The translations under genes and the position numbers were made by a program. From positions 1 to 64,000 of IMG/VR virus record IMGVR_UViG_3300032309_002930: DNA of 64,000 nucleotides; one strand, written 5' to 3'. The stretch is from a virus. Shown here one piece after another: positions 8,908 through 57,245 of the stretch; positions within the stretch are counted from its first letter, which is position 1, and the number at the start of each line of letters is the position of its first letter. The notes under the pieces are model-generated. The model did not search any database. It saw only the letters and a list, made by a program, of their open reading frames with translations, and was not told the DNA's origin.

Positions 8908-8924
8908 GTCAATATAAAGTTAAA

Positions 8925-9317: not shown

Positions 9318-9328
9318 AGTACCTAATA

Positions 9329-9334
9329 TTACAC
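9329..9334 (-). promoter_or_regulatory. Putative late promoter element GTGTAA
   Basis: GTGTAA on the minus strand, 11 bases before the ATG at 9317. Confidence 0.5.
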
Positions 9335-9361
9335 ATTAAATATAAAAAATGATATTATAAA

Positions 9362-12375: not shown

Positions 12376-12406
12376 AGCAAACGAATCCCTGTGTCCGCAT
12401 TTTTAC

Positions 12407-31342: not shown

Positions 31343-31357
31343 TTATTATAATATAAT
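31329..31357 (+). promoter_or_regulatory. Sigma70-type promoter of the 31364 unit
   Basis: TTGACA (31329-31334), 17 bases, TATAAT (31352-31357), then six bases to the ATG at 31364. Both hexamers are perfect. It lies in the 3' end of the preceding gene. Confidence 0.85.
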
Positions 31358-31363
31358 AACAAA

Positions 31364-32665: not shown

Positions 32666-32666
32666 A

Positions 32667-33200: not shown

Positions 33201-33213
33201 TCATTATTTTAAT

Positions 33214-35265: not shown

Positions 35266-35266
35266 A

Positions 35267-35929: not shown

Positions 35930-35974
35930 TTATTTGATTTTAATATAAAAATAATTATAATATCTTAAGATAAA

Positions 35975-36787: not shown

Positions 36788-36793
36788 CAGCTA

Positions 36794-37612: not shown

Positions 37613-37621
37613 AATAAATTT

Positions 37622-40761: not shown

Positions 40762-40762
40762 A

Positions 40763-41665: not shown

Positions 41666-41679
41666 TAAAATCATACAAT
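41651..41679 (+). promoter_or_regulatory. Promoter of the GDP-mannose dehydratase unit
   Basis: TTGAAT (41651-41656), 17 bases, TACAAT (41674-41679), then eight bases to the ATG at 41688. It overlaps the end of the preceding gene. Confidence 0.65.
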
Positions 41680-41687
41680 CAATAGTT

Positions 41688-42860
41688 ATGAACGCAAATA
41701 TAAAAGATACTTATTACGGTAAAAAAATAGATACAGCTAATATCTTAAACATTGAAGACGCAAGTAAACTAATTAATAATAGGAAAACAATTATTGTAAC
41801 TGGAGTCACTGGTCAAGATGGCAGTCATATGGTGGATTTCCTACTTAAAAATACTGATTATCTTATTTTTGGTGGAGTCAGAAGATTAAGCGTATATAAT
41901 CATGAAAATATTAAGCATATTAATTCTGATAGATTTTATCTTATTAATTTTGATTTAACTGATGCTCATGCGATATCAAGGACAATAGAGAAGCTACAGC
42001 CAGATTATTTTGTTAATTTTGCTGCTCAAAGTTTTGTTGCAAGTAGTTGGGATTTTTCTAGACAAACTTGGCACACTAATTCAACGGCTGTTCTAGATAT
42101 ACTTGAAGCAATTAGATTGTATAAACCATCTTGTAGATTATATCAAGCTGGCTCTAGTGAAGAATTTGGAAATGTAAAATACTCTCCACAAGATGAAGAT
42201 CACCCATTAAAACCAAGAAGTCCATATGGAGCAAGTAAAGCTGCCTCTAGACAACTAGTAAAAGTATATAGAGAATCTTATGGCATATATGCAATTCAAG
42301 GTTGGCTATTTAATCACGAAGGGACAAGAAGAGGCGAAGAATTTGTCACAAGAAAAATTAGTAAAAATGTAGCGCGTATTTATAATGCAATTAAAAATAA
42401 TGAAGATTTTCAACCACTTGAATTAGGAAATATTGAAGCCAAAAGAGATTGGAGTGATGCAGAAGATTTTGTAGAAGGAGTCTGGATGATGTTGAATCAA
42501 GATAAATATAATAAAAATTATTCTGGCGAACCAAAGGAGTATATATTTTCATCAAATGAAACTCATACTATTAGAGAGTTTGTTGAAAAAGCTTTTCGAT
42601 ACGCGGATATTAATGGATCTTGGATTTACTTAGATCCAGACTGCAAAGCAGAAGATGAAATTTTTTGCACAAAAAAAGATAATGGTGAATACAAAGTACT
42701 AGTAAGAATTAATCCTAAATTCTATAGACCAGCAGAAGTAGAATTACTTCTAGGAGACTCAAATAAAGCAAGAGAAGAATTAAATTGGAAACCTAAAATT
42801 TCTTTTGATAATTTAGTCAAAAAAATGGTAGATTGGGATATACAGAAATCTAAAGAGTGA
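41688..42860 (+). CDS. gmd: GDP-mannose 4,6-dehydratase
   Basis: The 390-residue protein has TGVTGQDGSHMVDFLL (NADP-binding), FVNFAAQSFVASSW, AGSSEEFGNV (catalytic Ser/Glu area), SPYGASKAASRQLV (YxxxK) and NHEGTRRGEEFVTRKI, all diagnostic of GMD. It converts GDP-mannose to GDP-4-keto-6-deoxymannose, the precursor of GDP-fucose, GDP-rhamnose and GDP-perosamine. I chose 41688 over an earlier in-frame ATG because of the promoter just upstream. Its stop overlaps the next start (GTGA). Confidence 0.93.
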   Translation: MNANIKDTYYGKKIDTANILNIEDASKLINNRKTIIVTGVTGQDGSHMVDFLLKNTDYLIFGGVRRLSVYNHENIKHINSDRFYLINFDLTDAHAISRTIEKLQPDYFVNFAAQSFVASSWDFSRQTWHTNSTAVLDILEAIRLYKPSCRLYQAGSSEEFGNVKYSPQDEDHPLKPRSPYGASKAASRQLVKVYRESYGIYAIQGWLFNHEGTRRGEEFVTRKISKNVARIYNAIKNNEDFQPLELGNIEAKRDWSDAEDFVEGVWMMLNQDKYNKNYSGEPKEYIFSSNETHTIREFVEKAFRYADINGSWIYLDPDCKAEDEIFCTKKDNGEYKVLVRINPKFYRPAEVELLLGDSNKAREELNWKPKISFDNLVKKMVDWDIQKSKE

Positions 42861-43834
42861 ATATACTAGTAACTGGTGGGCTGGGTTTTATTGGTTCTAA
42901 TTTTATTAAATTTATAATTAATAAAAAAGAAACAAATATTATCATAAATATAGACACGACAACAAAACAACATTCTGCAGCCAATGAAAAAAACGTAAAA
43001 GATTTTAAAGATAACCCTAAATATAAATTTTATGATTTTTGGTTAGAGATGCTAGACAATGCTTTTATTAAAGATCAATTTAAACAATTGATCAAAGATC
43101 ATAATATAACTCATATAGTTCATTTCGCAGCCGAATCACATGTAGATAATTCAATATCTGATCCCAAACGATTTATTCAATCGAATATATTAGGTACATT
43201 TAATCTCTTAGAAATTATTAGAGATTTTCCAGAAATTAGATTTCATCATATATCTACTGATGAAGTTTATGGCAGTTTAGGAGATGAAGGAAAATTTACA
43301 GAAACAACAGCTTACGCTCCAAATTCTCCATACTCCGCTTCAAAAGCTTCTAGTGATATGTTGGTAAGAGCATATCACCATACATTTAAAGCTTTAGTTA
43401 CAATTTCTAATTGTTCAAATAATTATGGACCAAATCAACATAATGAAAAATTTATTCCAGTTGTCATAAATTCTATATTAAACAATAAAAAAATACCAGT
43501 TTATGGTAATGGAAAAAATGTAAGAGATTGGATTTTTGTTGATGATCATTGTGAGGCCATATGGTTTGTACTTAATAATGGCAGGATTGGAGAAACTTAT
43601 AATATAGGTGGAAATTGCGAAAAGACAAATCTAGATATCATTAATGATATTTGCAAAGTTTTAAATTTAAATCCTCAAGATCATATATCTTTCGTAGAGG
43701 ACAGAAAAGGCCATGATTTTAGATACGCAATTGATAATTCAAAAATTAATAAAGAATTAAATTGGTTTCCAACAACATCATTTGAAGATGGAATATTAAA
43801 GACTATAGATTATTATAAAAATAAAACTTGCTAA
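42857..43834 (+). CDS. rmlB: dTDP-glucose 4,6-dehydratase
   Basis: The 325-residue protein has VTGGLGFIGSNFIKFI (NAD-binding), IVHFAAESHVDNSI, HISTDEVYGSLG, PNSPYSASKASSDM (YxxxK), NNYGPNQHNEKFIP and VRDWIFVDDHCEAI, all specific to RmlB. It dehydrates dTDP-glucose, feeding RmlC (32667). The nucleotidyltransferase RmlA is not in the window and may come from the host. The start is GTG. Confidence 0.94.
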   Translation: MNILVTGGLGFIGSNFIKFIINKKETNIIINIDTTTKQHSAANEKNVKDFKDNPKYKFYDFWLEMLDNAFIKDQFKQLIKDHNITHIVHFAAESHVDNSISDPKRFIQSNILGTFNLLEIIRDFPEIRFHHISTDEVYGSLGDEGKFTETTAYAPNSPYSASKASSDMLVRAYHHTFKALVTISNCSNNYGPNQHNEKFIPVVINSILNNKKIPVYGNGKNVRDWIFVDDHCEAIWFVLNNGRIGETYNIGGNCEKTNLDIINDICKVLNLNPQDHISFVEDRKGHDFRYAIDNSKINKELNWFPTTSFEDGILKTIDYYKNKTC

Positions 43835-43862: not shown

Positions 43863-44216
43863 ATGTCTAGTAGTAAATTTACTCCCCATAAACTGTGTCA
43901 ATTTATAGTTAAAAAATATATTAAGAATAATGTAAATTGGCCTAGAGAAATAAAGATCGCTAAAACTTTAATCAAAACTAATAAAGGATACTCTTTTTGG
44001 AATAGTTTAAAGGAATTAAAATTACCTAGTTTGGCTTGGTTTTTAACAGATCAAGGAAAAGCTTTTCTAGCCATAGAACATAAAAAGAATGAATTATGTT
44101 TAGATAATAAACAAGAAAAAATAGTACTTAATGAAAATAAAGTGGGAGAAGATAAAAAAGTTTGTCAAAAACCTAAAAGTCTGTTAGAATTTATTACATA
44201 TGGCAAAAAAATCTAA
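43863..44216 (+). CDS. Unidentified 117-aa protein
   Basis: The N-terminal part (KFTPHKLCQFIVKKYIKNNVNWPREIKIAKT, cited in pieces HKLCQFIVKKYIKNN and WPREIKIAKTLI) looks helical, with basic residues that could contact DNA. The C-terminus is charged and low in complexity. It overlaps the RecA-like gene by 17 bases, so a partner role in recombination is plausible but not shown. Confidence 0.6.
   Translation: MSSSKFTPHKLCQFIVKKYIKNNVNWPREIKIAKTLIKTNKGYSFWNSLKELKLPSLAWFLTDQGKAFLAIEHKKNELCLDNKQEKIVLNENKVGEDKKVCQKPKSLLEFITYGKKI
44162..44190 (+). promoter_or_regulatory. Internal promoter upstream of the RecA-like gene
   Basis: TTGTCA (44162-44167), 17 bases, TAGAAT (44185-44190), then nine bases to the ATG at 44200, all inside the preceding gene. 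Confidence 0.5.
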
Positions 44217-45342
44217 AGAAGAAATTATTGAAGCATCTGGTCCAAGTGCATCAGATAGATTATTATCGTTTTTAAAAGACAACAAAGAGGATCATTATAA
44301 TTTTGAAGATGAGATATATTATAAGGTATCTACTGGTAGTTTAAATTTGGATATCGCTACGGGTGGTGGTTTATGTCCAGGTTTACATAGATTTATTGGA
44401 ATGAATGAGGGTGGTAAAACCTCAGAAGCATTAGAAGTAACAAAGAACTTTCTTAAATCAGTAGAAAACTCTAGAGCTTTACTATTCAAAGCAGAGGGTA
44501 GATTAAGCAAAGAAATTAAAGAGCGTTCTGGAATTAAATTCGTAACTGATCCCAAAGAATGGGTTGATGGAACTTGCTTTGTATTTGAATGTAATATTTT
44601 TGAAACTGTTTCAGAATTGATGAAGGATCTTATTCAATCTAATGATGAAAATAAAAGATATATGTTTATTCTTGATTCAGTTGACGGCTTGATGACAAAA
44701 GGTGATGCTCAAAAAAGCATGACAGAAGCAACAAAAGTTGCTGGTGGAGCAGTTATTTCATCAATGCTAATGAAGAAGATTTCCCTCGCTCTTTCTAAAC
44801 GTGGTCACATGGCAATCTTTATTAGTCAAGTTAGATCAGATATTAAACTTGACCCTTATGCAGCAAATAAGGATATTCGTCAAACTACTGCAACTGGTGG
44901 AAATGCATTATTACATTTTGCTAATTGGATTCTAGAATTCGAACCAAAGTTTAACAAGGATCTTATTCTTGAAAAACCAAATGACAGATATGACCCAGTA
45001 AAGAATAAGATAATTGGACATAATGTAAAAATTGCAATTAAGAAATCAACTAATGAATCCACAAATTCAAAAGTTCAATATCCAATTAAATATGGTCGCA
45101 AAGATGGTTCGTCAGTTTGGAAAGAATATGAAGTAATTGATCAAATTCTTTCTTGGGAATTTGCATCAGCTAAAGGGGCATGGGTAACATTCTCAGATGA
45201 AATTATCGCCGAACTAAAAGAACAAAATTTAGAACTAAAAAAGCAACACCAAGGTATAGATAATCTAAGATCTTATCTAGAAGAAAATAAACCAATTGTT
45301 GATTATTTTTATAATAAATTTATTCAAACCCTTGCTTCATGA
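44200..45342 (+). CDS. RecA/UvsX-like recombinase
   Basis: A 380-residue recombinase of the RecA fold. After a short N-terminus it has VSTGSLNLDIATGGGLCPG, a Walker A GMNEGGKT, the Walker B strand RYMFILDSVDGLM, LSKRGHMAIFISQVR and TATGGNALLHFANW (loop 2-like). It would form filaments on ssDNA for strand exchange and for recombination-dependent replication, with the Cas4-like nuclease and the possible annealing protein at 58442. It overlaps a DUF559-type gene by four bases. Confidence 0.88.
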   Translation: MAKKSKEEIIEASGPSASDRLLSFLKDNKEDHYNFEDEIYYKVSTGSLNLDIATGGGLCPGLHRFIGMNEGGKTSEALEVTKNFLKSVENSRALLFKAEGRLSKEIKERSGIKFVTDPKEWVDGTCFVFECNIFETVSELMKDLIQSNDENKRYMFILDSVDGLMTKGDAQKSMTEATKVAGGAVISSMLMKKISLALSKRGHMAIFISQVRSDIKLDPYAANKDIRQTTATGGNALLHFANWILEFEPKFNKDLILEKPNDRYDPVKNKIIGHNVKIAIKKSTNESTNSKVQYPIKYGRKDGSSVWKEYEVIDQILSWEFASAKGAWVTFSDEIIAELKEQNLELKKQHQGIDNLRSYLEENKPIVDYFYNKFIQTLAS

Positions 45343-45770: not shown

Positions 45771-46037
45771 GTGGTGACTAATAAGAAAAAATTCAATTTT
45801 CCAGATGCACTTTTAAAGCAAATTGATGAATGCAGTTTCGGTGGATATGTTCTTTTTAATTTCTCAAATAAAGGCGAGCCTCAAGTATTCACAAAGTTTG
45901 ATAATCAAATAAATGCTATGGCGCTTTTATATTATTTAAATACTTGGAGCCAAAGCGTAGATCAACTTAATTTAGAAGCCACAACAGATTTAATTGCTAG
46001 AAAAAATGACGAAGAAGACCAAGAAGACGAAGATTAA
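45771..46037 (+). CDS. Small acidic-tailed protein (88 aa)
   Basis: The protein has a compact N-terminal part (FPDALLKQIDECSFGGYVLFNFSN in two parts: FPDALLKQIDECSFGG, YVLFNFSN) with GEPQVFTKFDNQINAMALLYYL, then an acidic tail (KNDEEDQEDED). Two consecutive GTG codons offer the start. The amino-acid pattern is of a small protein-interaction or DNA-mimic type, but no family is recognised. It is preceded by GTGTAA and followed by the dnaB promoter. Confidence 0.65.
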   Translation: MVTNKKKFNFPDALLKQIDECSFGGYVLFNFSNKGEPQVFTKFDNQINAMALLYYLNTWSQSVDQLNLEATTDLIARKNDEEDQEDED

Positions 46038-46067: not shown

Positions 46068-46075
46068 AATTGTTG

Positions 46076-47560
46076 ATGATTTATTCTATTCAAGTAGAAA
46101 GACATGTTTTAAGTGGTTTAATTAAATATCAAAATTTATTTGCAGAAGTAGATATTTTCTTAAATGATACTGATTTCTTTAATGAAGTTCATTCCACGAT
46201 ATATTCTGTTTACAAAAGCATAGCTCATAAAGGTGAAAAAGTAGATAAAGTACTTTTAGCGGAAAAGATTAAAAATCTTGGGATATCTTTTAAAGATGAT
46301 ATTAATATATTTGATTATATTGAGAATTTAGTTTTCTCACAAATCACAGAAGAAGCTACTATGAACGCTTGTAAAGAACTAATGAAATTAAGAATCCGCA
46401 GAGAGATAGTCCAAACAGCAGATAAACTAAAATCTTTTGTCACAAAAAATGGCGAAGATGCAATTGACAAGATCATCGCGGAAGCAGATTCTATTTATAA
46501 TAATAAAATTTCATCTTATATTTCGAAAGATGAACCAATTAATTTATTTGAAGGAGTTGAAGATATAATTGAGGAGTTAGGAAATAATCCTAGAGAAGAC
46601 TCTGGTTTGATTACTGGTTATCCAGAGTTTAATAGACTTTATGGTGGTTTAAAGAATGGAAACATTTACGCAATCGTAAGTCGTCCAGGCCAAGGAAAAT
46701 CTACTTGGATAAATGATATATGTTTTAATGTAGCGAAGAACCCAAAGAATAAAGTTAAAACGTTAATTCTAGATACCGAAATGCAGACCTTTGATATTCA
46801 ATTAAGAATGGTATCTTCTATATCAGACGTACCAATGTGGTATCTCGAAACTGGAAATTGGCGCAAAAATGAAGATATGACTAAAAAAGTTAGAGCAGCT
46901 TGGGCTCATGTTAAAAATTACGAACATTACCATTATCACGTTGGAAGTAAAAATATTGATCAAATCTGTTCTATGATTCGTAGATGGTACTTATCAAAAG
47001 TAGGAAGAGGAAACCAAGCTTTGATTGCTTATGATTACATTAAACTAACTGGAGAAAAGGTTGGGCAAAATTGGGCAGAACATCAAGCTATTGGAGACAA
47101 GATTGATAAACTTAAAAGAATTTCAGAAGAAATTAATTGCCCAATCGTAACCGCTATGCAACTTAATAGAACTGGAGAAAACTTTAATAGAAATGCTTCA
47201 GCAGTTGTTGATGATAGTTCTGCGATTTCTTTGTCAGATAGACTACAATGGTTTGCTTCATTTGTAGCGATTTTCAGAAGAAAAACATTAGATGAATTAG
47301 CTTTGGATGGCCAACAATTTGGAACTCATAAATTAATTCCAACCAAAACTAGATTTCAAGGTAGAGAAGCAGCTGGACATCAAGACTTGGTTAGAAGACT
47401 AGACGCTACTGGTAAAGAGACTTGGGCACAAAATTATTTAAATTATAATGTACAAAATTTTAAGATTGAAGAACGAGGATCTTTACATGATATCGCTACA
47501 AGACAAAGAGAGCAATATCAATTAAATGATCAAAGCGCAAATGACGGAGAATTATTGTGA
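46076..47560 (+). CDS. dnaB: Replicative DNA helicase, DnaB family
   Basis: The 494-residue helicase has the DnaB N-terminal domain (IQVERHVLSGLIKYQNLF, FFNEVHSTIYSVY) and the RecA-like C-terminal motor: ITGYPEFNRLYGGLKNGNI, Walker A RPGQGKST, TLILDTEMQ (motif H1a with E), ALIAYDYIKLTG (Walker B) and CPIVTAMQLNR, with an Arg-finger region near SDRLQWFASF. It opens the fork for the split Pol III enzyme. I start at 46076 (MIYSIQVERH), the first ATG after the promoter. The C-terminus ends ANDGELL, like the end of the protein at 54775. Its stop overlaps ThyX. Confidence 0.93.
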   Translation: MIYSIQVERHVLSGLIKYQNLFAEVDIFLNDTDFFNEVHSTIYSVYKSIAHKGEKVDKVLLAEKIKNLGISFKDDINIFDYIENLVFSQITEEATMNACKELMKLRIRREIVQTADKLKSFVTKNGEDAIDKIIAEADSIYNNKISSYISKDEPINLFEGVEDIIEELGNNPREDSGLITGYPEFNRLYGGLKNGNIYAIVSRPGQGKSTWINDICFNVAKNPKNKVKTLILDTEMQTFDIQLRMVSSISDVPMWYLETGNWRKNEDMTKKVRAAWAHVKNYEHYHYHVGSKNIDQICSMIRRWYLSKVGRGNQALIAYDYIKLTGEKVGQNWAEHQAIGDKIDKLKRISEEINCPIVTAMQLNRTGENFNRNASAVVDDSSAISLSDRLQWFASFVAIFRRKTLDELALDGQQFGTHKLIPTKTRFQGREAAGHQDLVRRLDATGKETWAQNYLNYNVQNFKIEERGSLHDIATRQREQYQLNDQSANDGELL

Positions 47561-48216
47561 ATGTAAAATTAGTATCTATAACGAAACCAGATATTGAAGG
47601 ATTACAAAATGCAGAAGATCTAGTAGCTTATTGTGCCAGAGTAAGCAATCCATCTAATCAAATGAATTCTGAAACCGCTCCAAAATTACTTGGATTTCTA
47701 ATTAAGCATAAACATTGGAGCCCATTTGAAATGGTTGATATGACAGTGGAAATTAAAACAAGCAGAGCAATTGCAACCCAAATTTTAAGGCATAGATCAT
47801 TTAGTTTTCAAGAATTTAGTCAAAGATATAGCGCGGCAACAGATTTTGAAGATATTGAATTTAGATTGCAAGGAGATAAAAATCGTCAAGTAGGAGAGAA
47901 TTTATTAGATCCAACAGATTTAAGATATGCAGATTTATATACTTCAGTTAAAGAAGCTATGGAAGCTTCAATTATTGCTTATAATAAAATGATCCACAAT
48001 GGAATAGCAAAAGAAGTAGCGCGAATGATTCTTCCACTAACAACCGAAACAACAATGTACATGAAAGGCTCGCTTAGAAGCTGGGTTCATTATCTTGAGT
48101 TAAGAACAGAGAAAAATACTCAAAAAGAACATAGACTGATTGCGGATGAATGTAAAAATATTTTTATTAAAAATTTTCCAACAATAAGCGAGGCATTACA
48201 ATGGAAAGCGGAATAA
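47557..48216 (+). CDS. thyX: Flavin-dependent thymidylate synthase
   Basis: The 219-residue protein has the ThyX signature RHRSFSFQEFSQRYS and the FAD/dUMP-binding SPFEMVDMTVEI and LRSWVHYLELRT motifs. It makes dTMP from dUMP using methylene-tetrahydrofolate, NADPH and FAD. It works with the phage dCMP deaminase (19427) and ribonucleotide reductase. The start is GTG, overlapping the dnaB stop. Confidence 0.95.
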   Translation: MNVKLVSITKPDIEGLQNAEDLVAYCARVSNPSNQMNSETAPKLLGFLIKHKHWSPFEMVDMTVEIKTSRAIATQILRHRSFSFQEFSQRYSAATDFEDIEFRLQGDKNRQVGENLLDPTDLRYADLYTSVKEAMEASIIAYNKMIHNGIAKEVARMILPLTTETTMYMKGSLRSWVHYLELRTEKNTQKEHRLIADECKNIFIKNFPTISEALQWKAE

Positions 48217-49115
48217 ATATTCACGAAGTGTTAACCAATATAGGTTATTCACTTAAGGATTGCGGAAAAGAATATAGAACAAGACCAATCTATAGAGATA
48301 GCGACAATGATTCTGTTTTAAGAATTTATAAAGACTCTGGAAATTGGGTTGATTTCAAAGAGAATATAAGTGGCGATTTCGCTAGTTTAATTAAACTTAG
48401 TTTAAAATTAGAAACTCAAGATCAAGCAAAAACATGGTTAAAAGAAAAGAACTTCGTAGGAACTACAGTTCTTAAAGATGAAAAACCAAAGATTAAATCT
48501 GCAAAAACTTTTGATAAAGATTTACTTTTGAAACTTAAAAAAGATCATTCTTATTGGATTAATAGAGGAGTATCACAAGAAACTTTAAACTTGTTTTTAG
48601 GTGGAGTAGCCGATAATGGAAAGATGAAGAATAGATATGTATTTCCAATTCTTAATAGCAAAAAAGATATTGTGGGATTTTCTGGAAGAGATTTGAATTC
48701 TCAAAGCAAAATTAAATGGAAACATTTGGGAGAAAAAATTAATTGGTGTTATCCTTTATTTTTGAATATTGATGAAATTCAAACTTCTAAAGAAGTATTC
48801 TTAGTAGAAAGTATTGGTGATTGTTTATCTTTATGGGAATCTGGAATTAAAAATACTATAGTCACTTTTGGGTTAGAAGTTAGCGTATCAATTTTAAATG
48901 TTTTACTAAAAGTAGATCCTACTAAAATTTATATATCATTTAACAATGATCAAGAAAAGAATAGCGCTGGTAATATTGCAGCAGATAAAGCTTATAATAA
49001 ATTATTAAGATATTTTGATTCAAAACAATTAGAAATTAAATTACCATCCAAGAAAGATTTCGGGGAAATGAATACCGAAGAAATATTACAATGGCAGAAG
49101 AAACCAAAAATTTAA
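48201..49115 (+). CDS. DNA primase with Toprim domain, zinc finger degenerate
   Basis: The 304-residue protein has an N-terminal CHC2-like module where the usual zinc cysteines are replaced (YRTRPIYRDSDNDSVLRIY, NWVDFKENISGDFASLIKL). RYVFPILNSKKDIVGFSGRD and the Toprim core FLVESIGDCLSLW (Glu), TIVTFGLEVS and IYISFNND (D-x-D replaced by N-N-D) follow. It lacks a separate helicase-binding domain, so it would work with DnaB 16 bases upstream of thyX's neighbour. The length fits a phage primase. It overlaps the Cas4-like gene by 25 bases. Confidence 0.83.
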   Translation: MESGINIHEVLTNIGYSLKDCGKEYRTRPIYRDSDNDSVLRIYKDSGNWVDFKENISGDFASLIKLSLKLETQDQAKTWLKEKNFVGTTVLKDEKPKIKSAKTFDKDLLLKLKKDHSYWINRGVSQETLNLFLGGVADNGKMKNRYVFPILNSKKDIVGFSGRDLNSQSKIKWKHLGEKINWCYPLFLNIDEIQTSKEVFLVESIGDCLSLWESGIKNTIVTFGLEVSVSILNVLLKVDPTKIYISFNNDQEKNSAGNIAADKAYNKLLRYFDSKQLEIKLPSKKDFGEMNTEEILQWQKKPKI

Positions 49116-50053
49116 AAGTTCTTTCAGCTTCTAGAATCAAAACTCTTGAAACCTGTTCTTGGGTTTACTGGAATAACTATCATACTAAAGTTCCACAATC
49201 TCAAAATGATGGAGCTTTAAGAGGAACTATTTGTCATACAGTTTTCGAATTACTTTTAAACAAAAGACATCTTAATAATTACAAAAGAATAATAAAAAAG
49301 AACGCAATTAATGGAGATAAAGGTGTTGATGCACTAGTTAAGAAATTAGCGAAAAAAGTTAAGCTAGATGATAGTAATTATAAATTATTAAATGATATGA
49401 TTTTGGTAGGTTTAAAGCATGATTTCTTTGGTGAAGCTGGAGATATAGTTAAACCAGAATATCCATTTGATATTGAAAGTCAAGAGCCTAAATATCGTAT
49501 CCGAGGTTTTATAGATAAGCCAATTAAAACCAAAAAAGAAATGCATATAATCGACTACAAGAGCTCCAAATATAAATTCAGGGGTGATGACCTTGAGGCT
49601 AATATTCAAGCTATGATGTATAGTCTAGCGAGTAAAAAATTATGGCCAAAATTAAAGCCTATTGTAAAGTTCTTATTTCTTAGATTTCCAAAGCAACCTA
49701 TTCAAGAATTAACTTTTACTGATGAGCAAATTACTGGATTTGAGCACTATTTAGAGCATATCAATGACTATGTTGATAAGTTTGATGAAAATTCTGCGAA
49801 AGCAAATTTTGCAATAGATAATGAAAAAAATAAATGGATGTGCAAAATAGGTGGCTGGAAATGTCCATATAAAGATCCTTATGAATATTATGTTAAATTA
49901 AATGACAAAGGCGAAGTAGTTGAAACAAGTTTAGAGGATAACTTTAAAGATGTTAAAGGATTTAAAGTAGAAACTAGAAAATATGAAGGTTGTCCAAAAT
50001 GGCCACAGCTTAAACAAGGTGAGAATCATGATGCTTTTGCTGATTTAAATTAG
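49091..50053 (+). CDS. Cas4/RecB-like PD-(D/E)XK nuclease with probable Fe-S cluster
   Basis: The 320-residue protein has SASRIKTLETCSWVYWNNY (first Cys), GALRGTICHTVFELLL (nuclease His), RIRGFIDKPI (Asp) and MHIIDYKSSKYKF (E/D-x-K core), then WMCKIGGWKCPYKD and YEGCPKW carrying the C-terminal Cys trio. This Cys-nuclease-Cys3 pattern is that of Cas4 and AddB-type nucleases. No CRISPR array or cas gene is present, so a DNA end-processing role in replication-recombination is likely. It ends DAFADLN. Confidence 0.85.
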   Translation: MAEETKNLKVLSASRIKTLETCSWVYWNNYHTKVPQSQNDGALRGTICHTVFELLLNKRHLNNYKRIIKKNAINGDKGVDALVKKLAKKVKLDDSNYKLLNDMILVGLKHDFFGEAGDIVKPEYPFDIESQEPKYRIRGFIDKPIKTKKEMHIIDYKSSKYKFRGDDLEANIQAMMYSLASKKLWPKLKPIVKFLFLRFPKQPIQELTFTDEQITGFEHYLEHINDYVDKFDENSAKANFAIDNEKNKWMCKIGGWKCPYKDPYEYYVKLNDKGEVVETSLEDNFKDVKGFKVETRKYEGCPKWPQLKQGENHDAFADLN

Positions 50054-50056
50054 CTA

Positions 50057-50085
50057 TTGACACTATAATATATATTAATTATAAT
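50057..50085 (+). promoter_or_regulatory. Sigma70-type promoter of the polymerase unit
   Basis: TTGACA (50057-50062), 17 bases, TATAAT (50080-50085), then six bases to the ATG at 50092. Both hexamers are perfect. Confidence 0.87.
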
Positions 50086-50091
50086 ACCCAA

Positions 50092-50844
50092 ATGGAAGTA
50101 TTGCCATTATTTAAGTCTCATTTTAGTATTGGAAGATCTATTCTTACTCTTGAAGATGAAGAGAAAGAAGAAAATCAACCAGATTCTATTATAGATATAG
50201 CTAAAGATAATAATTTAAAAGAAGTTAATTTAGTTGAAGATAATATGACTTCGTTTTTGCAAGCTTATACTAATACTAAGAAGTATAATATTAACTTAAG
50301 ATATGGATTAAGAATTTCTATAAATGATGATATGAACGAAAGGTCAGAAGAGTCTCGCCAAAAAACTTCTAAAGTAGTTATATTTTTTAAAAATGAACAA
50401 GGCTACAAAGATTTAATTAAAATATTTTCAACCGCTGCAAAAGATGGTTTTTATTATGAACCAAGAATAGACTTCAAAACTTTAAAATCATTATGGAGCG
50501 ACAAGAATTTGCTATTATGTATTCCATTTTATGATTCTTTTATTTTTAACAATACATTAAGGAGTATGGTTTGTGTACCAGACTTAGAATTCACCAAACC
50601 AATATTATTTATTGAAAATAATAGCCTTCCATTTGATCATATTATTAAGAATAAAGTTTTAGCTTACGCCAAAGCTAATAAATTAGAAATGTTAAATACT
50701 AAAAGCATCTACTATAAAAATGGCAAGGATTTTAAAGCGTATTTAACCTTCAGATGTATTAATAATCGAACCACTTTAAATAAACCAGAATTATCACATA
50801 TGACCAGCAATCGATTTTCTTTTGAAAGCCTAAATATTAAATGA
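50092..50844 (+). CDS. DNA polymerase III alpha, N-terminal PHP-like domain as a separate protein
   Basis: The 250-residue protein matches the PHP region of DnaE by order of segments: FKSHFSIG near the start, IAKDNNLKEVNLVEDN, NLRYGLRI, then NEQGYKDLIKIFSTAAKDG and FYYEPRIDFKTL, which correspond to the DnaE 'NExGYxNLxxLxSxAxxxGFYxxPRID' segment. The PHP metal ligands (HxHxxxSxxDG and TDHG) are not conserved, so it is probably not an active phosphoesterase. It is encoded apart from the catalytic core at 52182. Its stop overlaps the next gene (ATGA). Confidence 0.82.
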   Translation: MEVLPLFKSHFSIGRSILTLEDEEKEENQPDSIIDIAKDNNLKEVNLVEDNMTSFLQAYTNTKKYNINLRYGLRISINDDMNERSEESRQKTSKVVIFFKNEQGYKDLIKIFSTAAKDGFYYEPRIDFKTLKSLWSDKNLLLCIPFYDSFIFNNTLRSMVCVPDLEFTKPILFIENNSLPFDHIIKNKVLAYAKANKLEMLNTKSIYYKNGKDFKAYLTFRCINNRTTLNKPELSHMTSNRFSFESLNIK

Positions 50845-51329
50845 ATAAAAAAGTAAATGAGTATGGCACTAAATGCCGACAAAGAGAAGATACAGAAGAT
50901 CGTCTTATAGACTATAGAAACTGGAAGTATAAACAAAAATATTTATGGACTACAGATTTAGACCAAATAGAATGGACCAAACAAAATGGCGAAGATATTC
51001 CAGTAGCAATTTTAGAAATGACCAGAATAGATAATGATTATTCAATACCACCAAATTCATATTTTGATAGCATAATAGAAAGAATGTTCACTAGAGATAC
51101 TCAAGGAAGAAAAGCCGTTATTTTAGCCGATAAATTAAATGTGCCAGCTTTTATTGTAGCTTATTTAAAAAATATGACTTACTTTATAATGTATGATATG
51201 AAAAAAAGAGATGGATGGAAAGTTTTAAATGAAGATGAATACATAGACTGGCATTATAAAATTAGAAATATAGAAAGACCTATTCAGAAAACTCAAATAG
51301 AAGAAGATCCTTTCGCGGATATAATTTAA
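50841..51329 (+). CDS. Unidentified protein between polymerase modules (162 aa)
   Basis: The protein has YRNWKYKQKYLWTTDLDQIEW, IPVAILEMTRIDNDYSIPP and LADKLNVPAFIVAYLKNMTYF. The 'DLDQIEW...VAILEMT' arrangement hints at a restriction-endonuclease-like fold, but the evidence is weak. It ends with the acidic tail EEDPFADII, similar in character to the tails of replication partners. It is co-translated with the PHP-like gene and sits where a single polymerase gene would have an internal region. Confidence 0.65.
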   Translation: MNKKVNEYGTKCRQREDTEDRLIDYRNWKYKQKYLWTTDLDQIEWTKQNGEDIPVAILEMTRIDNDYSIPPNSYFDSIIERMFTRDTQGRKAVILADKLNVPAFIVAYLKNMTYFIMYDMKKRDGWKVLNEDEYIDWHYKIRNIERPIQKTQIEEDPFADII

Positions 51330-51330
51330 T

Positions 51331-51969
51331 ATGGACGAGCATTTATTAAGATACGATAAAAGTAAAACTTTTGTTTTTATTGATTTAGAAACATTTAATC
51401 TTTGTTTGAATTTCTGCCATAATCTACCTTGGCAAATTGGAATGATAAAAGCTAAAGGTGATTTTAAAATTGATAGCAAGAATTTTTATATTAAATGGAA
51501 TACTGATTTAAAGATCAGTGATGATGCAGCGAGAATAACAAGATACGACCACAAGAAAGTGCAAAGAGAAGGTCTTGATATTAAAGAAGCGTTTCCCACA
51601 ATAAAAGATTGGTTAGATCATGCGGATTATATTGTTGGACATAATATTCTTGGTTTTGATATTTTCTTAATTAAAGAACTATATGAATCCATGGGTTGTC
51701 ATTGGGATCATTTAATGAATAAGATAATTGATACTAATTGCATGGCTAGAGGAATAAAATATGGAACTCCATATAAACCTAATACTGATTTATTAGAATA
51801 TCAATATAAAACGTATCATACAAAACGAAAAGATGTAAAAAGTAGCTTGACATTCCTTGGTAAAGAGAATAGTATAGATCATGACTATGATAAATTGCAT
51901 GATGCAATTAACGATCTTGACCTTAATTTAAAAGTTTGGAATAAATTAAAGTGGCAAATTGAGTTATAA
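51331..51969 (+). CDS. DEDD 3'-5' exonuclease (DnaQ-like proofreader)
   Basis: The 212-residue protein has FVFIDLETFN (Exo I, D-x-E), IVGHNILGFDIFLIKEL (Exo II, D) and HDAINDLDLNLKVWNKL (Exo III-type). It would proofread for the separate polymerase core, as DnaQ does for DnaE in bacteria. In PolC this domain is inserted within PHP, whereas here it is an independent gene in the middle of the polymerase operon. Confidence 0.86.
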   Translation: MDEHLLRYDKSKTFVFIDLETFNLCLNFCHNLPWQIGMIKAKGDFKIDSKNFYIKWNTDLKISDDAARITRYDHKKVQREGLDIKEAFPTIKDWLDHADYIVGHNILGFDIFLIKELYESMGCHWDHLMNKIIDTNCMARGIKYGTPYKPNTDLLEYQYKTYHTKRKDVKSSLTFLGKENSIDHDYDKLHDAINDLDLNLKVWNKLKWQIEL

Positions 51970-51970
51970 T

Positions 51971-52192
51971 ATGGGATCTTTAGATGATGTATATGATTTG
52001 ACGCAAAAGCTAGAAGATAATGGCATAGAGTATCTTCTTATAACTGTTCAAAAGGGCAAAAAGCAAGGCAAAGCAGATGTATTCTTTCATTTAAAAGATA
52101 AGTCCTCTATGAGAATTCTGGCTACTGGATTATCGGCTTTTGACAAAGAAATAGATAAAATACAAAAAGAAGAGGAAGAAGATGACGAATAA
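51971..52192 (+). CDS. Small acidic protein of the polymerase operon (73 aa)
   Basis: I start it at 51971 (MGSLDDVYDLTQKLEDNGIE), directly after the exonuclease stop. The sequence YLLITVQKGKKQGKADVFFHL followed by the acidic end QKEEEEDDE suggests a small folded domain with a tail. It overlaps the polymerase core start by 11 bases. The function is unknown. Confidence 0.7.
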   Translation: MGSLDDVYDLTQKLEDNGIEYLLITVQKGKKQGKADVFFHLKDKSSMRILATGLSAFDKEIDKIQKEEEEDDE

Positions 52193-54743
52193 AGATTTTA
52201 ATAGTTTATTTGATCAAGTAGATTTAGCTCTTTATGGAGTAAGACTTCCAGAGTTTAAAATTGATAATGAATACAAGCATGACTTAGAAGTAAGTGAAGA
52301 TGTATCAAATTACGAATTTCTTAGAGCATTAGCTTTAAAAGGTTTTAAAAAATTAAATCTTAAGAAAGACTCAGATTTATATAAAAAATATATTGAAAGA
52401 GCAAAGTACGAATTAGAAACTCTTAAAGAACTAGAGTTTATTGATTATATTATTTTGGTTTGGAGTGTTATTGATTATTGTAATAAGAACAATATTCCAG
52501 TTGGATTAGGTAGAGGTTCAGCAGCGGGTTCTCTGATATTATATCTAATCGGGGTTACTCAAATTGATCCAGTTAAATATGATCTTTATTTCGAAAGATT
52601 TATATCCAAGATTAGAGCTAAAAAGCAAGTCGTTGATGGAGTAACCTATTTGGATGGCAGTTTAATGTGTGACGTAGATTTGGATATTTGTTATTATAAT
52701 AGACATAAAGTTCTACAATACCTAGAAGAACAATTCAAAGGTAAGACTAGCAAGATTTTAACATTAAATACATTAAGCGGAAAATTATTGATTAAAGAGT
52801 GCGGAAAAATTGTTGGAGAAAAATCAGAACAAGAGATGACGGAAGTATCATCTTTGATTCCTAAAATCTTCGGACAAGTTAAAGATATCACTACAGCTTA
52901 TGACGATGTACCTAAATTTAAAGAATGGTGCGACAATAATAAAGATATTTATGCTATTGCTCTTAGACTAAGGAACTTAATTAAAAATAAAGGTGTTCAT
53001 CCATCTGGAGTTTTGTTGTCTTATAATGATCTAGAGAATTCTTGTCCAACTGAATTATCTGGAGATAAAGAAGCAGTATCAAGTTTTGACATGAGCTGGG
53101 TTTCATTATTTAATATTAAACTTGACATTCTAGGTTTAAGAAGCGTTTCTGTAGTAGATGACGTTTGTAAAAGTATTGGTAAAAAAATAACGGACATTGA
53201 TTTAAATGATGAATCGATCTATAGAAATCTACAAGATTTAAGAAATCCTCATGGTCTATTCCAGATTGAAGCGGAAACTAATTTTAAAGTTTGTCAAAAA
53301 GTTAAGCCCAAGAATCTAGAAGAATTAAGCGGAGTTTTAGCTTTAGCTAGACCTGGAGCTTTGCAATTTGCAGATAAATATGCTGCTCATACTAATTTTC
53401 AACAATCAGAAAGTATTCATCCATTCTTTGATGATATATTAAAAGATACTGGTGGAGTAGCTTTATACCAAGAGCAATTAATGAAGATGGCTAATAAGAT
53501 TGGATTCACGCTGGATGAAGCAGAAATCTTAAGAAGAATTGTAGGTAAAAAGAAAACAGAAGAAATTAAAGCTTGGAAGAAGAAGATTGAAGATAAGATT
53601 AAACAAAATAAACTTCCAAAAGAAGTAGGAGAAATCTTATGGAAAATCTTGGAGGATTCAGCAAACTATTCATTTAATAAATCGCATTCAATTGCTTATG
53701 CAGCTTTAGCCGCGATTACTATTTATTTGAAGTTTAATTATCCTCAACAATTCTTTTTGTCTCTATTAAAGATGACCAGAAACGAACCAGATCCAATTGG
53801 TGAAATATCTAAGATTCAAAAAGAAATGGGACATTTTGATATTAAATTATTAAAACCCCATATTATTAAATCTGAAATGGATTTCTCTATAGAAGGTTCA
53901 GATATCAGATTTGGACTATTATCAATTAAAGGCATTTCAGATAAATCAATTGAAAAGCTAAACGGATTTAGAAATAAGTATTCTAATAAGTTTGAAATTT
54001 TTCAAGCAGCAGAAGAAGCAGATCTTAATATTGGAGTATTGTGCTCCTTAATTCAAGCTGGAGCTTTAACTGGATTTAAACAATCTAGAAGTAAAATAGT
54101 ACTAGAAGCACAACTTTGGAATATATTAACAGCAAAAGAAAAGAAGTATTCGATTTCATTTGCAGAGCAATTTGATTATGATCTTATTAGAATTATTAAA
54201 CATTTAAATACATTTACTGATGAAAAAAATAAAGTTATAATTAAGAGTTCTAGATTAGATACAATTAAATCTAAATATGAACCTTACCTTAAAATCTACA
54301 ATCAAAATAGTAAAAGTGAAAGTTTCGCTAATTGGTATTATGAAAAGAGACTTTTAGGTTATACTTACGAAAGAACATTAAAAGATATTTTTCACGAAAA
54401 GAGAGAAGACTTATTGAGTATTAACGAAATACTTGATTCACCAGTTAATACAAAAATAGCATTGGTCGGAGAGATAACAGATGTATACTCTGGAACATCA
54501 AAGAATGAAAAGAAAACAAAATACTTAAGACTTAAAGTATCCGATGAAACTGGAGATATTACTGTATTATTATTTAACGATAAGATAGAAAATTGTAAAA
54601 CTCTTAATGGTAATAAAAATCCAGATGAAAAGAATATTGTAATAGTTAAGGGCATCAAAAAAGAAGATTGTATATTTGCTGATTTAGTGGCAATTCAAGA
54701 TCATGAAATATATATGAAATTAAGCGAAATTAAAAAGATTTGA
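52182..54743 (+). CDS. dnaE: DNA polymerase III alpha subunit, catalytic core (DnaE-type)
   Basis: The 853-residue protein starts past the PHP domain. Pol III family features are in order: YELETLKELEFIDYIILVW, PVGLGRGSAAGSL, QIDPVKYDLYFERF, and the catalytic MCDVDLDICYYNRHKV (two Asp in D-x-D), then LNTLSGKLLIKECGK. Later come GVHPSGVLLSYNDL, SFDMSWVSLFNIKLDILGLRSV, LARPGALQFADKYA, GVALYQEQLMKMA, FNKSHSIAYAALAAITIYLK and a C-terminal OB fold (IALVGEITDVYSG, TGDITVLLFNDK). It copies the phage genome. The absent N-terminus is supplied by 50092-50844. Confidence 0.94.
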   Translation: MTNKDFNSLFDQVDLALYGVRLPEFKIDNEYKHDLEVSEDVSNYEFLRALALKGFKKLNLKKDSDLYKKYIERAKYELETLKELEFIDYIILVWSVIDYCNKNNIPVGLGRGSAAGSLILYLIGVTQIDPVKYDLYFERFISKIRAKKQVVDGVTYLDGSLMCDVDLDICYYNRHKVLQYLEEQFKGKTSKILTLNTLSGKLLIKECGKIVGEKSEQEMTEVSSLIPKIFGQVKDITTAYDDVPKFKEWCDNNKDIYAIALRLRNLIKNKGVHPSGVLLSYNDLENSCPTELSGDKEAVSSFDMSWVSLFNIKLDILGLRSVSVVDDVCKSIGKKITDIDLNDESIYRNLQDLRNPHGLFQIEAETNFKVCQKVKPKNLEELSGVLALARPGALQFADKYAAHTNFQQSESIHPFFDDILKDTGGVALYQEQLMKMANKIGFTLDEAEILRRIVGKKKTEEIKAWKKKIEDKIKQNKLPKEVGEILWKILEDSANYSFNKSHSIAYAALAAITIYLKFNYPQQFFLSLLKMTRNEPDPIGEISKIQKEMGHFDIKLLKPHIIKSEMDFSIEGSDIRFGLLSIKGISDKSIEKLNGFRNKYSNKFEIFQAAEEADLNIGVLCSLIQAGALTGFKQSRSKIVLEAQLWNILTAKEKKYSISFAEQFDYDLIRIIKHLNTFTDEKNKVIIKSSRLDTIKSKYEPYLKIYNQNSKSESFANWYYEKRLLGYTYERTLKDIFHEKREDLLSINEILDSPVNTKIALVGEITDVYSGTSKNEKKTKYLRLKVSDETGDITVLLFNDKIENCKTLNGNKNPDEKNIVIVKGIKKEDCIFADLVAIQDHEIYMKLSEIKKI

Positions 54744-54768
54744 CATTTTATTAAACATAATATATTAT
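54740..54768 (+). promoter_or_regulatory. Sigma70-type promoter of the 54775 gene
   Basis: TTGACA (54740-54745), 17 bases, TATTAT (54763-54768), then six bases to the ATG at 54775. The -35 box overlaps the stop of the polymerase gene. Confidence 0.83.
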
Positions 54769-54774
54769 CACTAT

Positions 54775-55323
54775 ATGATATCATTCTACAAACCTAATAG
54801 TAAAAATACTGGAACTGCTTGCAGCTTTACAGTAAACTCAAAAGATGCTTCAATTTGGAGTTCATTAATTAAACAGTCTTCTTGGAATGAAGCCAAGAAA
54901 ATTGGTTCATTTTCTGAAAATCAAAATAACCCAAATAAAAGTGTTAAAATTAAATTTTCTCTAACAGAAGCCGCTGGCCTTTTAGATGCTCTAGAAAGAA
55001 ATAGTGAATTTTCAGCATACCATACATCAGAAAAACAATCCACACAAATTAAATTATCTCCTTATCTTCGAGATGATAAGCAAGTTGGATTCTCTTATAT
55101 GGTATCTAAAACAGATAAGCAAAATAGTGAAAATAAACAGTCATATCTAATTGGTTTTTATTTTAATGAAGCACGTTTATTGAAACAGTTTTTATCTTAC
55201 GCATTGGATTCTGTATTTGAATCTCAAAGAATAGAAACAATTAAAAAACTTAAAAATTCTAAAAAAGATAATGACGAAGATCAAAATGATACCAAAGTTG
55301 ATAATGATGGCGAGCTTTGGTAA
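54775..55323 (+). CDS. Putative ssDNA-binding protein
   Basis: The 182-residue protein begins FYKPNSKNTGTACSFTVNSK and alternates strands and basic/aromatic residues (NPNKSVKIKFSLTEAAGLLD, QVGFSYMVSKTD, SYLIGFYFNEARLLKQFL). It then has a Lys/Asp-rich linker and ends DNDGELW. The mix of beta-rich core plus acidic hydrophobic tail, its position right after the polymerase and its strong promoter fit an SSB. No OB-fold motif can be proved by eye. The tail NDGELW resembles the DnaB tail NDGELL. Confidence 0.55.
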   Translation: MISFYKPNSKNTGTACSFTVNSKDASIWSSLIKQSSWNEAKKIGSFSENQNNPNKSVKIKFSLTEAAGLLDALERNSEFSAYHTSEKQSTQIKLSPYLRDDKQVGFSYMVSKTDKQNSENKQSYLIGFYFNEARLLKQFLSYALDSVFESQRIETIKKLKNSKKDNDEDQNDTKVDNDGELW

Positions 55324-57245
55324 TGTCTAGAAAAAAGAAATTTTTATATCATTCTGATTTTGCTTTAGCTAAAACTGGCTTTGGCAGAGTATCGAAATCT
55401 CTTTTAACTTACTTATATAAAACTGGTAAATATGATATCGTACATTATTGCTGTGGTATGCAAGAAGGTAATGCTGATCTATCAAAAACACCTTGGAAAT
55501 CTTTAGGAACATTACCAAATTCTCAAGCCGAAATAGAGCAGCTAAACAAAGATCCTAATCAAGCTAGAATGGCTAGTTATGGATCTTATTATATAGATAA
55601 AATTATTGAAACTGAAAAACCAGATGTTTATGTTGCTGCTCAAGATATTTGGGGAGTAGATTATAGCATAGCAAAACCTTGGTTTAGCAAAATTAAATCA
55701 GCGATTTGGACAACTCTTGACTCTTTGCCAATATTACCATCAGCAGTTTCATGCGCTTCAAAATTAAAAAACTACTGGATTTGGAGCGATTTTGCTACAA
55801 AAGCCTTACATGATTTAGGTCATAAAGATGTAAAAACGATGCATGGTCCAATTGATATAAATAATTTTTATAGATTATCTGAGGATGAAAGAAAAAATTT
55901 AAGAATTAAAAATAATATTAATCCAAACGCTTTTATTATTGGTTTTGTTTTTAGAAATCAATTAAGGAAAAGTGTTCCAAATCTATTAGAAGGTTACGCC
56001 ATGTGGAAGGCAAGAAATCCAGAAGTTAAAAATACTTATTTGCTTTTACACACTCATTGGGGTGAAGGATGGAATATTTATAAATTAGCAGAGGAATATA
56101 ATATACCAAAACAAGAAATATTAACAACCTACGTTTGCAGAACTTGTGGTAATTATGAAATAAAAAATTTTACTGGACAAGAACTTAATTGCAAATTTTG
56201 TAAAGCTGAAAAATCTCAAATAACTACTAATGTAGGAATTGGAATTAGTGAAAAGCAACTTAATGAAGTTTATAATTTAATGGATGTATATTGCCATCCA
56301 TTTACAAGTGGTGGACAAGAAATACCAATTCAAGAAGCCAAATTGACAGAACTTATTACTTTAGTTACAAATTATAGTTGTGGAGAAGAAATGTGTCTAG
56401 AGGAAGCTAATTCGCTACCTTTAGATTGGGCAGAATATAGAGAACATGGTACAGAATTTAGGAAGGCTTCAACTTTACCAAGTTCTATAGCTAAACAATT
56501 ACAAAAAGTATGGAAAATGCCGATAGAAAAAAGAAGAGAAATAGGCAAAGAAGCGAGAGAATGGACAATAGATAATTATTCATCCGAAGTCATTGGTGAA
56601 AAATTTGAAGAATTTATAGATTCAGCGGATTTTGCTGATTATAGTGATATATCAGTACAGCCAGAACAGCAAGATCCTTTATGCAAAATTCCACTAATAC
56701 AAGATAATTCTGAATGGTTAAAAGCTTTATATGCTAAAATCTTAAAAAGACCAGAAGTAGATGAAAATGATGATGGCCATAAATATTGGATGCAAGAATT
56801 ATCAAAAGGACAAAAGCGAGAAGATATTGAAAATTACTTTAGACAAGTAGCTTGGCAAGAAAATCAAAAGAATAAAAAAATAGAGTTCAAAGATCTTTTA
56901 GATAAAGATGATGATGGCAAAAGAATTTTGTATGTTATACCAGAAGATGAATCTGATGTATTTATTAGTACTAGTTTATTTCCATCAATTAAAAGATTAT
57001 ATCCAGATTATAATTTATATGTTGCTACTAAAAATGAATATTTTGATATTTTAGATGGCAATAATAATGTTCATAAAGTTATACCTTTCGTTCCTCAAAT
57101 GGAAAATCAGATATGGTGTGAAGGTAATAAAGATTTCAAAGGCTATTTTGAAATTGCATTTTTACCTTATTTTGGAACACAAAAAATATTAAATTATCTT
57201 CATAATGGAAAAGATAAAATTGAATTTGATATAAAGAATTTTTAA
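55323..57245 (+). CDS. Multi-domain glycosyltransferase: GT-B with zinc ribbon, DUF4214-like and start of a GT9-like domain
   Basis: The 640-residue protein starts MSRKKKFLYHSDFALAKTGF, a GT4-type N-terminus. The second Rossmann part has AFIIGFVFRNQLRKSVPNLL and GISEKQLNEVYNLMDVYCHP, QEIPIQEAKLTE. Between them is an unusual zinc ribbon (YVCRTCGNYE, LNCKFCKAEK). At ~470-530 a helical DUF4214-like part (EWLKALYAKILKRPEVDEND) follows, then RILYVIPEDESDVFISTSLF, which begins a GT9-like fold. The gene stops in the middle of that fold, and the next gene continues it. The start is the ATG in TAATG. Confidence 0.78.
   Translation: MSRKKKFLYHSDFALAKTGFGRVSKSLLTYLYKTGKYDIVHYCCGMQEGNADLSKTPWKSLGTLPNSQAEIEQLNKDPNQARMASYGSYYIDKIIETEKPDVYVAAQDIWGVDYSIAKPWFSKIKSAIWTTLDSLPILPSAVSCASKLKNYWIWSDFATKALHDLGHKDVKTMHGPIDINNFYRLSEDERKNLRIKNNINPNAFIIGFVFRNQLRKSVPNLLEGYAMWKARNPEVKNTYLLLHTHWGEGWNIYKLAEEYNIPKQEILTTYVCRTCGNYEIKNFTGQELNCKFCKAEKSQITTNVGIGISEKQLNEVYNLMDVYCHPFTSGGQEIPIQEAKLTELITLVTNYSCGEEMCLEEANSLPLDWAEYREHGTEFRKASTLPSSIAKQLQKVWKMPIEKRREIGKEAREWTIDNYSSEVIGEKFEEFIDSADFADYSDISVQPEQQDPLCKIPLIQDNSEWLKALYAKILKRPEVDENDDGHKYWMQELSKGQKREDIENYFRQVAWQENQKNKKIEFKDLLDKDDDGKRILYVIPEDESDVFISTSLFPSIKRLYPDYNLYVATKNEYFDILDGNNNVHKVIPFVPQMENQIWCEGNKDFKGYFEIAFLPYFGTQKILNYLHNGKDKIEFDIKNF

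Follow-up and report, generated by a model that had tools for sequence, protein, structure and literature searches.

Separate genes for the PHP domain, exonuclease and catalytic core of a DnaE-like polymerase in a large clade of phages

The DNA analysed here, which we call the window, is a 64,000-nucleotide stretch (positions 1 to 64,000) of the 86,885-base virus record IMGVR_UViG_3300032309_002930 from IMG/VR. At 50092-54743 it carries five genes, for a PHP-like protein, a 162-residue protein (p162), a DEDDh exonuclease, a small protein (p77) and the catalytic core of a DnaE-like DNA polymerase III alpha subunit (Table 1). All five open reading frames (ORFs) lie where the initial annotation of this DNA had placed them. 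By their ORF coordinates, p162 overlaps the end of the PHP gene, p77 the end of the exonuclease gene and the core the end of p77. The annotation had described the PHP-like N-terminus and the core as separate proteins of one operon, with a DEDD exonuclease between them. The ORFs and the Pfam matches agree with this, and the exonuclease, which matches RNase_T, has its DEDDh residues intact.

Table 1. Genes of the polymerase locus and of its replication and recombination neighbourhood (positions in the window).
Feature	Position	Strand	Remarks
PHP subunit, stand-alone, DnaE-type fold, metal site lost	50092..50844	+	250 aa; Pfam PHP E 1.1e-12
p162, optional accessory protein in the PHP-exonuclease slot	50841..51329	+	162 aa
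DEDDh 3'-5' exonuclease, epsilon-like	51331..51969	+	212 aa; Pfam RNase_T E 8.7e-11
p77, small accessory protein with acidic tail	51959..52192	+	77 aa from TTG; 73 aa from in-frame ATG
DnaE catalytic core: palm-thumb-fingers, HhH, OB	52182..54743	+	853 aa; no PHP on chain
p182, Whirly-fold single-strand DNA-binding candidate, acidic tip ending DGELW	54775..55323	+	AF2 model, PDB match
DnaB-like replicative helicase	46070..47560	+	Pfam DnaB_C 9.9e-26, DnaB 7.5e-12
DnaG-like primase with Toprim	48201..49115	+	Toprim_2 4.5e-7, DNAG_N 8.8e-7; phrog_47 2.8e-31
PD-(D/E)XK exonuclease	49091..50053	+	PDDEXK_1 8.9e-17
UvsX-like recombinase	44200..45342	+	phrog_97 3.6e-32

An AlphaFold2 (AF2) model of the PHP protein, built from 19 relatives, has a mean predicted local distance difference test score (pLDDT) of 85 (the other four models, 73-78). 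Searched against the PDB with Foldseek, it finds DnaE PHP domains as its best matches (5fkw, E 2.1e-11). In VIA it superposes on residues 5-257 of 4iqj_A, a DnaE PHP domain, with a Z of 20.4 and a root-mean-square deviation (rmsd) of 3.6 over 228 aligned positions, while PolC PHP domains match more weakly (Z 16-17) and other PHP enzymes reach a Z of 12 at most. PHP phosphoesterases of other kinds are among the VIA rows as well (3o0f, Z 11.8), followed further down by generic barrels. By NCBIfam the protein is closer to DnaE (59.5 bits) than to PolC (34.5 bits). The initial annotation stood or fell with a PHP domain in 50092-50844, and such a domain is recognised there both by Pfam and by structure. 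Since the best structural matches are DnaE PHP domains, the cut sits at the boundary between PHP and palm.

The core matches the Pfam families DNA_pol3_alpha (E 5e-54), DNA_pol3_finger (E 4.7e-33) and HHH_6 (E 1.5e-15). An OB domain follows the HhH, as in DnaE, with a weak Pfam match (tRNA_anti-codon, E 0.0031) that is below the cut-off. The catalytic aspartates D164, D166 and D315 are present in all 223 non-gapped sequences and correspond to E. coli D401, D403 and D555 in the 22 family rows aligned, all of which keep them; from residue 70 on, the core aligns with residues 383-953 of Taq DnaE. The NCBIfam DnaE models NF004226 (448 bits) and TIGR00594 (426 bits) match, and no NCBIfam PolC model does. 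Sixteen one-chain DnaEs were combined into a fused profile of 1099 positions, on which the PHP protein maps to 19-235 and the core to 276-1039; this bears out the earlier claim that the segments align in order with one DnaE. Similarly, PHROG phrog_405 (DNA polymerase, 1190 positions) matches the PHP protein at 60-289 and the core at 324-1083. The core stops after the OB domain: the DnaE model is matched only up to position 1043 of 1146, and a recognisable tau-binding C-terminal domain was not found in this match. That domain is described as poorly conserved among DnaEs (PMC3919608).

The exonuclease is likewise conserved in its active site, with D18, E20 and D110 in 217/217 and H190 and D195 in 219/219 non-gapped sequences. 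Its profile matches the PolC exonuclease 2p1j (E 1.2e-5).

To collect related contigs, we scanned viral contigs five times. Four of these scans had a core protein as query, in one case that of the window, and the fifth had the PHP protein of the window; in three, the confirmed relatives numbered 384, 197 and 391, of which the best 80 were retained each time. A sixth scan, which covered genome contigs of bacteria and archaea, gave 10 loci, mostly from metagenome-assembled bins whose host is unsure. The resulting 329 loci, the window included, come down to 227 distinct contigs once those sharing an identical 1.5-kb stretch are collapsed. PHP, exonuclease and core are all present in 210 of these, and in every one they are three ORFs on one strand in the order PHP-exonuclease-core. 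A fused gene was found in none of the 210, nor was a PHP domain on the core's chain, and the same scans would have picked up a fused gene with a similar core. Of the other 17 contigs, 16 are cut by the contig end; in the last, L194, strand and order are unchanged but the core follows the exonuclease only after about 8.3 kb, with PHP and exonuclease about 0.5 kb apart. Spacing varies considerably among the 210. The PHP-exonuclease gap is at most 30 nt in 104 contigs and at least 200 nt in 101, the exonuclease-core gap is at most 30 nt in 94, and the trio is contiguous, with both gaps at most 30 nt, in 48.

Because all 210 contigs share the three-ORF order and none is fused, the split is old and fixed in a large phage clade, and is neither an artefact nor the recent break that a single frame in related phages would have implied. 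Frameshift-fragmented polymerase genes are reported from genome data (PMC3919608), and a frameshift, an assembly error or a decaying gene in one phage might be suspected here as well. That explanation has practically no chance of being right, given that the contigs are all split alike around an intact exonuclease gene and that the ratio of nonsynonymous to synonymous substitution rates (dN/dS) is far below 1 in all three genes.

The two halves could also be rejoined into one chain after transcription or translation, by an intron, an intein or a programmed frameshift or hop. There are precedents of a kind: a split-intein DnaE is described in cyanobacteria (PMC3919608), and the two pieces of DnaE in Bacillus phage KLEB27-3 have an HNH gene between them. 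In the window's clade, however, the halves are separated by an exonuclease ORF that is conserved and keeps its catalytic residues, the offset of the palm frame relative to the PHP frame is spread 77/69/64 across contigs, and L194 has its long stretch between exonuclease and core. Furthermore, Rfam finds no intron at 49500-55500 and, by alignment reading only, neither PHP nor core has extra terminal sequence at intein-half sites. We therefore think rejoining highly improbable.

A few cores in the collection are irregular. In L230 the core occupies two ORFs (7974-9752 and 9777-10955) whose profile matches overlap (20-570 and 501-849), as if a stretch had been duplicated. The core match of L291 (6001-9027) is about 480 nt longer than usual, and L321 (216-3263) has a core ORF of 1015 aa; possible causes are inserts such as an intein.

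In a tree of 53 cores, which is unrooted, the 22 family rows all fall in one clade, with a value of 100 in the SH-like approximate likelihood ratio test (SH-aLRT). A second tree of 46 rows, with three PolC sequences as outgroup, nests the split clade (100/100) within DnaE, where it groups (97/86) with one-chain DnaEs of Streptomyces and Bacillus phages and sits on a long stem of 0.89. Taken together, the NCBIfam scores and the PolC-rooted tree point to a DnaE that was split within a phage lineage, and we rejected a PolC or ancestral origin on the same grounds. The enzyme is thus of the DnaE type and its fission derived. The initial annotation had suggested an ancestral PolC/DnaE-like enzyme; this part of it had to be given up, since no PolC model matches, the OB domain follows the HhH as in DnaE, and the clade is nested in DnaE.

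The reverse history, in which the three-gene state came first and DnaE and PolC are later fusions, would agree with the complete lack of fused genes in the clade and with its long stem. A proposal of this kind is attributed to Iyer et al. for the minimal split Pol III of jumbo phages (PMC7824862). Nevertheless we regard it as very unlikely here. The clade is nested in DnaE beside fused phage DnaEs when PolC is the outgroup, PolC is described as placing its exonuclease differently (PMC3919608), and PolC and DnaE alike have PHP joined to the palm, which makes fission the simpler history.

The PHP protein has lost its metal site, as had been claimed; not every DnaE keeps this site. The metal-ligand motif of PHP domains is given as HHDHEH[C/H]DH (PMC12926913). 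At the nine ligand positions, taken from a bacterial DnaE, just one of the 1886 cells is kept among 212 PHP sequences. Four of these positions are now basic: K8 (K/R in 202/208), R15 (205/208), R74 (202/209) and K94 (209/210), replacing two His, an Asp and a Glu ligand. Position 93, just before K94, is His in 49 sequences, so an alignment shift near K94 is possible. The protein is nonetheless under strong purifying selection, with a median dN/dS of 0.055 (0.026-0.149) over 40 pairs, compared with 0.030 each for exonuclease and core.

A protein that is catalytically dead yet tightly conserved fits the role of a pseudo-enzyme scaffold. There is a parallel in E. coli, where the PHP domain of Pol III is described as having a structural, non-enzymatic role and as binding epsilon, and where loss of the metal ligands is said to accompany the presence of epsilon (PMC3666897). 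Could the PHP protein instead have left the polymerase for a separate role, and stand in the operon by chance or for co-regulation? The replaced ligands, four of them by conserved Lys or Arg, might be read in this way, as might L194, in which the core is far from the exonuclease and PHP has stayed close to it. Against this, the fold is still close to that of DnaE PHP, PHP and core are found together on all contigs that are long enough, and mutations in the E. coli PHP domain make the entire polymerase less stable and less active (PMC3666897). On balance a separate role seems rather unlikely.

The initial annotation had also proposed a multi-subunit replicase. An operon of split DnaE, PHP protein and exonuclease is borne out, but membership of all five products is not. 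For p162 there is no Pfam or PDB match, and its PHROG matches reach only E 0.13; an assignment to Imm33 (1/13, at E 0.075) was disregarded. The only Pfam match of p77 is a weak one to DUF3801 (E 0.0022, below the cut-off). A complex of five subunits, including the 162-aa and 73/77-aa proteins, might be argued from the shared operon with its overlapping ends and from p77-like proteins between exonuclease and core in 92 of 123 close relatives. Over the 210 contigs, however, p162-like proteins occur in 31 and p77-like proteins in 94 (elsewhere in the locus in three), and fewer than a quarter have the trio contiguous. In addition, the slots between PHP and exonuclease and between exonuclease and core hold quite different proteins elsewhere: ten slot ORFs scanned from other contigs gave four glycosyltransferase families, one radical-SAM/SPASM protein, one IMPDH-like protein, two cupins and, for two, nothing. 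We consider five subunits unlikely. As the slots take up unrelated cargo, p162 is best read as cargo too. p162 and p77 are optional, and the conserved unit is the PHP-exonuclease-core trio, often with a Whirly-fold candidate single-strand DNA-binding protein (SSB) adjoining. Upstream of the helicase (45771-46037, + strand) the window encodes an 88-aa protein with an acidic tail that is p77-like by eye only.

The split DnaE seems to be the only recognisable polymerase of these phages. PF07733 is found exactly once in 12/12 large records and in the window's own record, and no A- or B-family polymerase was found in 21/21 records.

We think it probable that the phage encodes its own replicase here, a non-covalent complex of the DnaE type in which a dead PHP protein serves as scaffold and proofreading is done in trans. 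The grounds are the genes, their folds and catalytic residues, the conserved order, the selection on PHP and the placement within DnaE. In such a complex the core would polymerise, and the PHP protein would take the place of the PHP domain of a one-chain DnaE, packing against palm and thumb. It would stabilise the core and hold the DEDDh exonuclease, which would proofread in trans. The arrangement would have originated once, when a phage DnaE split between PHP and palm and left its halves on either side of the exonuclease gene, and would since have been retained in a large, old clade. We infer that the three proteins bind one another, that the exonuclease proofreads for the split core and that replication needs all three.

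Several observations weigh against this picture. E. coli epsilon binds PHP through a C-terminal tail. The 212-aa exonuclease ends 17 residues past its last catalytic aspartate, D195, and has no tail of that kind, hence a contact with PHP would need another route. Neither a beta clamp (PF02768; 0/32 large records, and no PF00712 in the window's record) nor a clamp loader (PF13177; 0/20 large records searched for it) was found, although virus records may be fragments and such absences are not proof. By eye, the 22 family rows have no QxxLF-like clamp motif at the E. coli-aligned place, and one may lie elsewhere. With no clamp, loader or E. coli-type clamp motif recognised, the proposed complex does not account for its processivity. 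Finally, support is mixed for the deep branches around the clade (82/56, 86/37), which makes its exact neighbours uncertain.

The gene directly downstream of the core, p182, is of interest for the proposed replicase. Its AF2 model (mean pLDDT 87) superposes on the PDB structure of WHY2, 4kop, with a Z of 16.7 and an rmsd of 2.2 over 136 aligned positions, and six Whirly-family chains match with E-values from 1.4e-6 to 2.4e-5. Other phage proteins of Whirly fold are present in BFVD, one of them named Whirly transcription factor. Within the flanks fetched, p182-like proteins occur in 126 of the 210 contigs. An acidic tip with a hydrophobic end is found in 115/137 p182-like proteins compared with 62/2217 other ORFs. 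In several more distant relatives (L336, L339, L344 and others) the tip reads EDVPF, EDAPF or EDPPF, resembling the DDDIPF tip of bacterial SSB; in other distant relatives listed (L295, L351 and others) it is not of this kind. Fold, place and acidic tip make p182 a candidate SSB. The DnaB-like helicase of the window's sub-clade has a tip like that of p182, NDGELL, which we set aside as supporting evidence as only 23/140 helicases pass a stricter rule.

A bolder idea is that the freed PHP protein has become a hub. Its metal site would have been rebuilt as a basic pocket of Lys8, Arg15, Arg74 and Lys94 for an acidic binding partner, most likely the p182 tip (DGELW here, EDVPF-like in distant relatives). 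PHP would thereby link SSB, exonuclease and core within a replisome that has no recognised clamp gene of its own. This is speculative, and we would give it a small but real chance.

How does the trio compare with known systems? With the one-chain DnaEs of bacteria and phages it shares the PHP fold, the palm DxD + D, the GRGSAAGS motif, fingers, HhH and C-terminal OB. The differences are that PHP is a dead, separate chain, that an exonuclease gene lies between the halves and that no clamp motif is recognisable at the E. coli position. The alpha-epsilon pair of E. coli Pol III likewise combines an inactive PHP domain with a separate DEDDh exonuclease (PMC3666897), but there PHP is covalently part of alpha. 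PolC also has PHP, exonuclease and palm as one functional unit (PMC3919608). Its exonuclease is inserted inside PHP and its OB domain lies ahead of PHP, whereas in the window's clade PHP, exonuclease and core-HhH-OB are separate genes. DnaE1 of Bacteroidetes is described as a DnaE with its own exonuclease and a disrupted PHP metal site (PMC3919608); there the exonuclease is fused before PHP on a single chain. The DnaEs L251 and L252 from flavobacterial bins are not close to the split clade in the PolC-outgroup tree.

Split phage polymerases are not new as such. The jumbo-phage form of Iyer et al. also has Pol III alpha as separate proteins (PMC7824862), and is described as broken inside the catalytic domain, without other Pol III domains and adjoining a B-family polymerase, for which the 21 records of the window's clade that were searched have no match. 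Two-gene DnaEs are also found in Cellulophaga phages phi13:1/phiST, Mycobacterium phage Fowlmouth, Lysinibacillus phage LC76P1 and Bacillus phage KLEB27-3, all with breaks within palm or fingers (profile 404/405, 579/586, 408/423 and 613/624) and not at the PHP/palm boundary. The nearest parallel comes from Krampusvirus phages of Microbacterium, examined in Sparcetus (gp61 + gp63) and JingleBells (gp56 + gp57), which have DnaE in two genes cut at nearly the same boundary (profile 286/300 in Sparcetus). The PHP of Sparcetus keeps the metal ligands that the window's clade has lost, and between the Krampusvirus halves there is nothing or a 63-aa ORF, not an exonuclease. Since these phages form a separate branch (98/95 with Belfort), the break arose there independently. 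Sparcetus gp61 has at least 60% identity in 38 of 915 matching phage records.

Broken phage DnaEs, the split minimal Pol III of jumbo phages (PMC7824862) and inactive PHP domains (PMC3919608, PMC3666897) are thus already on record. We did not meet the three-gene PHP/exonuclease/core form in the literature searched, which left aside the 2011 survey of viral replicases by Kazlauskas and Venclovas. What is apparently new is a stable trio of this kind as the sole recognised polymerase of a large phage clade. The bacterial replicases surveyed carry PHP and palm on one chain, and the contribution of PHP has been studied there by mutation within the chain. With PHP, exonuclease and core as separate proteins in more than 200 phage contigs, each can be omitted, swapped or pulled down, and the question of why inactive PHP domains persist becomes directly testable. 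Together with Krampusvirus, the clade makes two independent lineages in which the break falls at this domain boundary.

The trio also belongs to a C-family replisome that is small and has no clamp gene that we recognise, in a group of phages to which none of the isolate genomes searched is closely related. The best identities of core relatives there are about 25-32%, the exonuclease finds five cyanophage records at just 22% coverage, and no relative was found for a presumed structural protein or for p182, in a search from which records very near the window's own were possibly omitted. Three 'phage' records among the best core matches are bacterial-looking contigs with an ordinary dnaE. More generally, the phage-named records L163, L164, L167, L266, L268 and L269 carry a bacterial-looking dnaE or polC, those with dnaE have chromosomal-looking neighbours, and all six look like host contigs.

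There is little Shine-Dalgarno signal at the gene starts of 50092-55323, except inside p77 ahead of the core, and five of the ten loci from the genome collection come from bins titled Flavobacteriaceae, Flavobacteriales or Saprospiraceae. From these two observations our guess is a host among the Bacteroidota.

Elsewhere in the window, 47557-48216 resembles ThyX by eye, and a long run of ORFs at 29844-43834 (+ strand) resembles, again by eye, glycosyltransferases and sugar-nucleotide enzymes. An adenylosuccinate-synthase-like protein (12993-13985, - strand; purA models 3e-77, PurZ model just 3e-29) and an IMP-dehydrogenase/GMP-reductase-like protein (17978-19084, - strand) point to purine metabolism encoded by the phage. 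A complete tmRNA gene is present at 11990-12376 (+ strand; Rfam RF00023, 102.8 bits), with an odd predicted tag that ends in ESVA.

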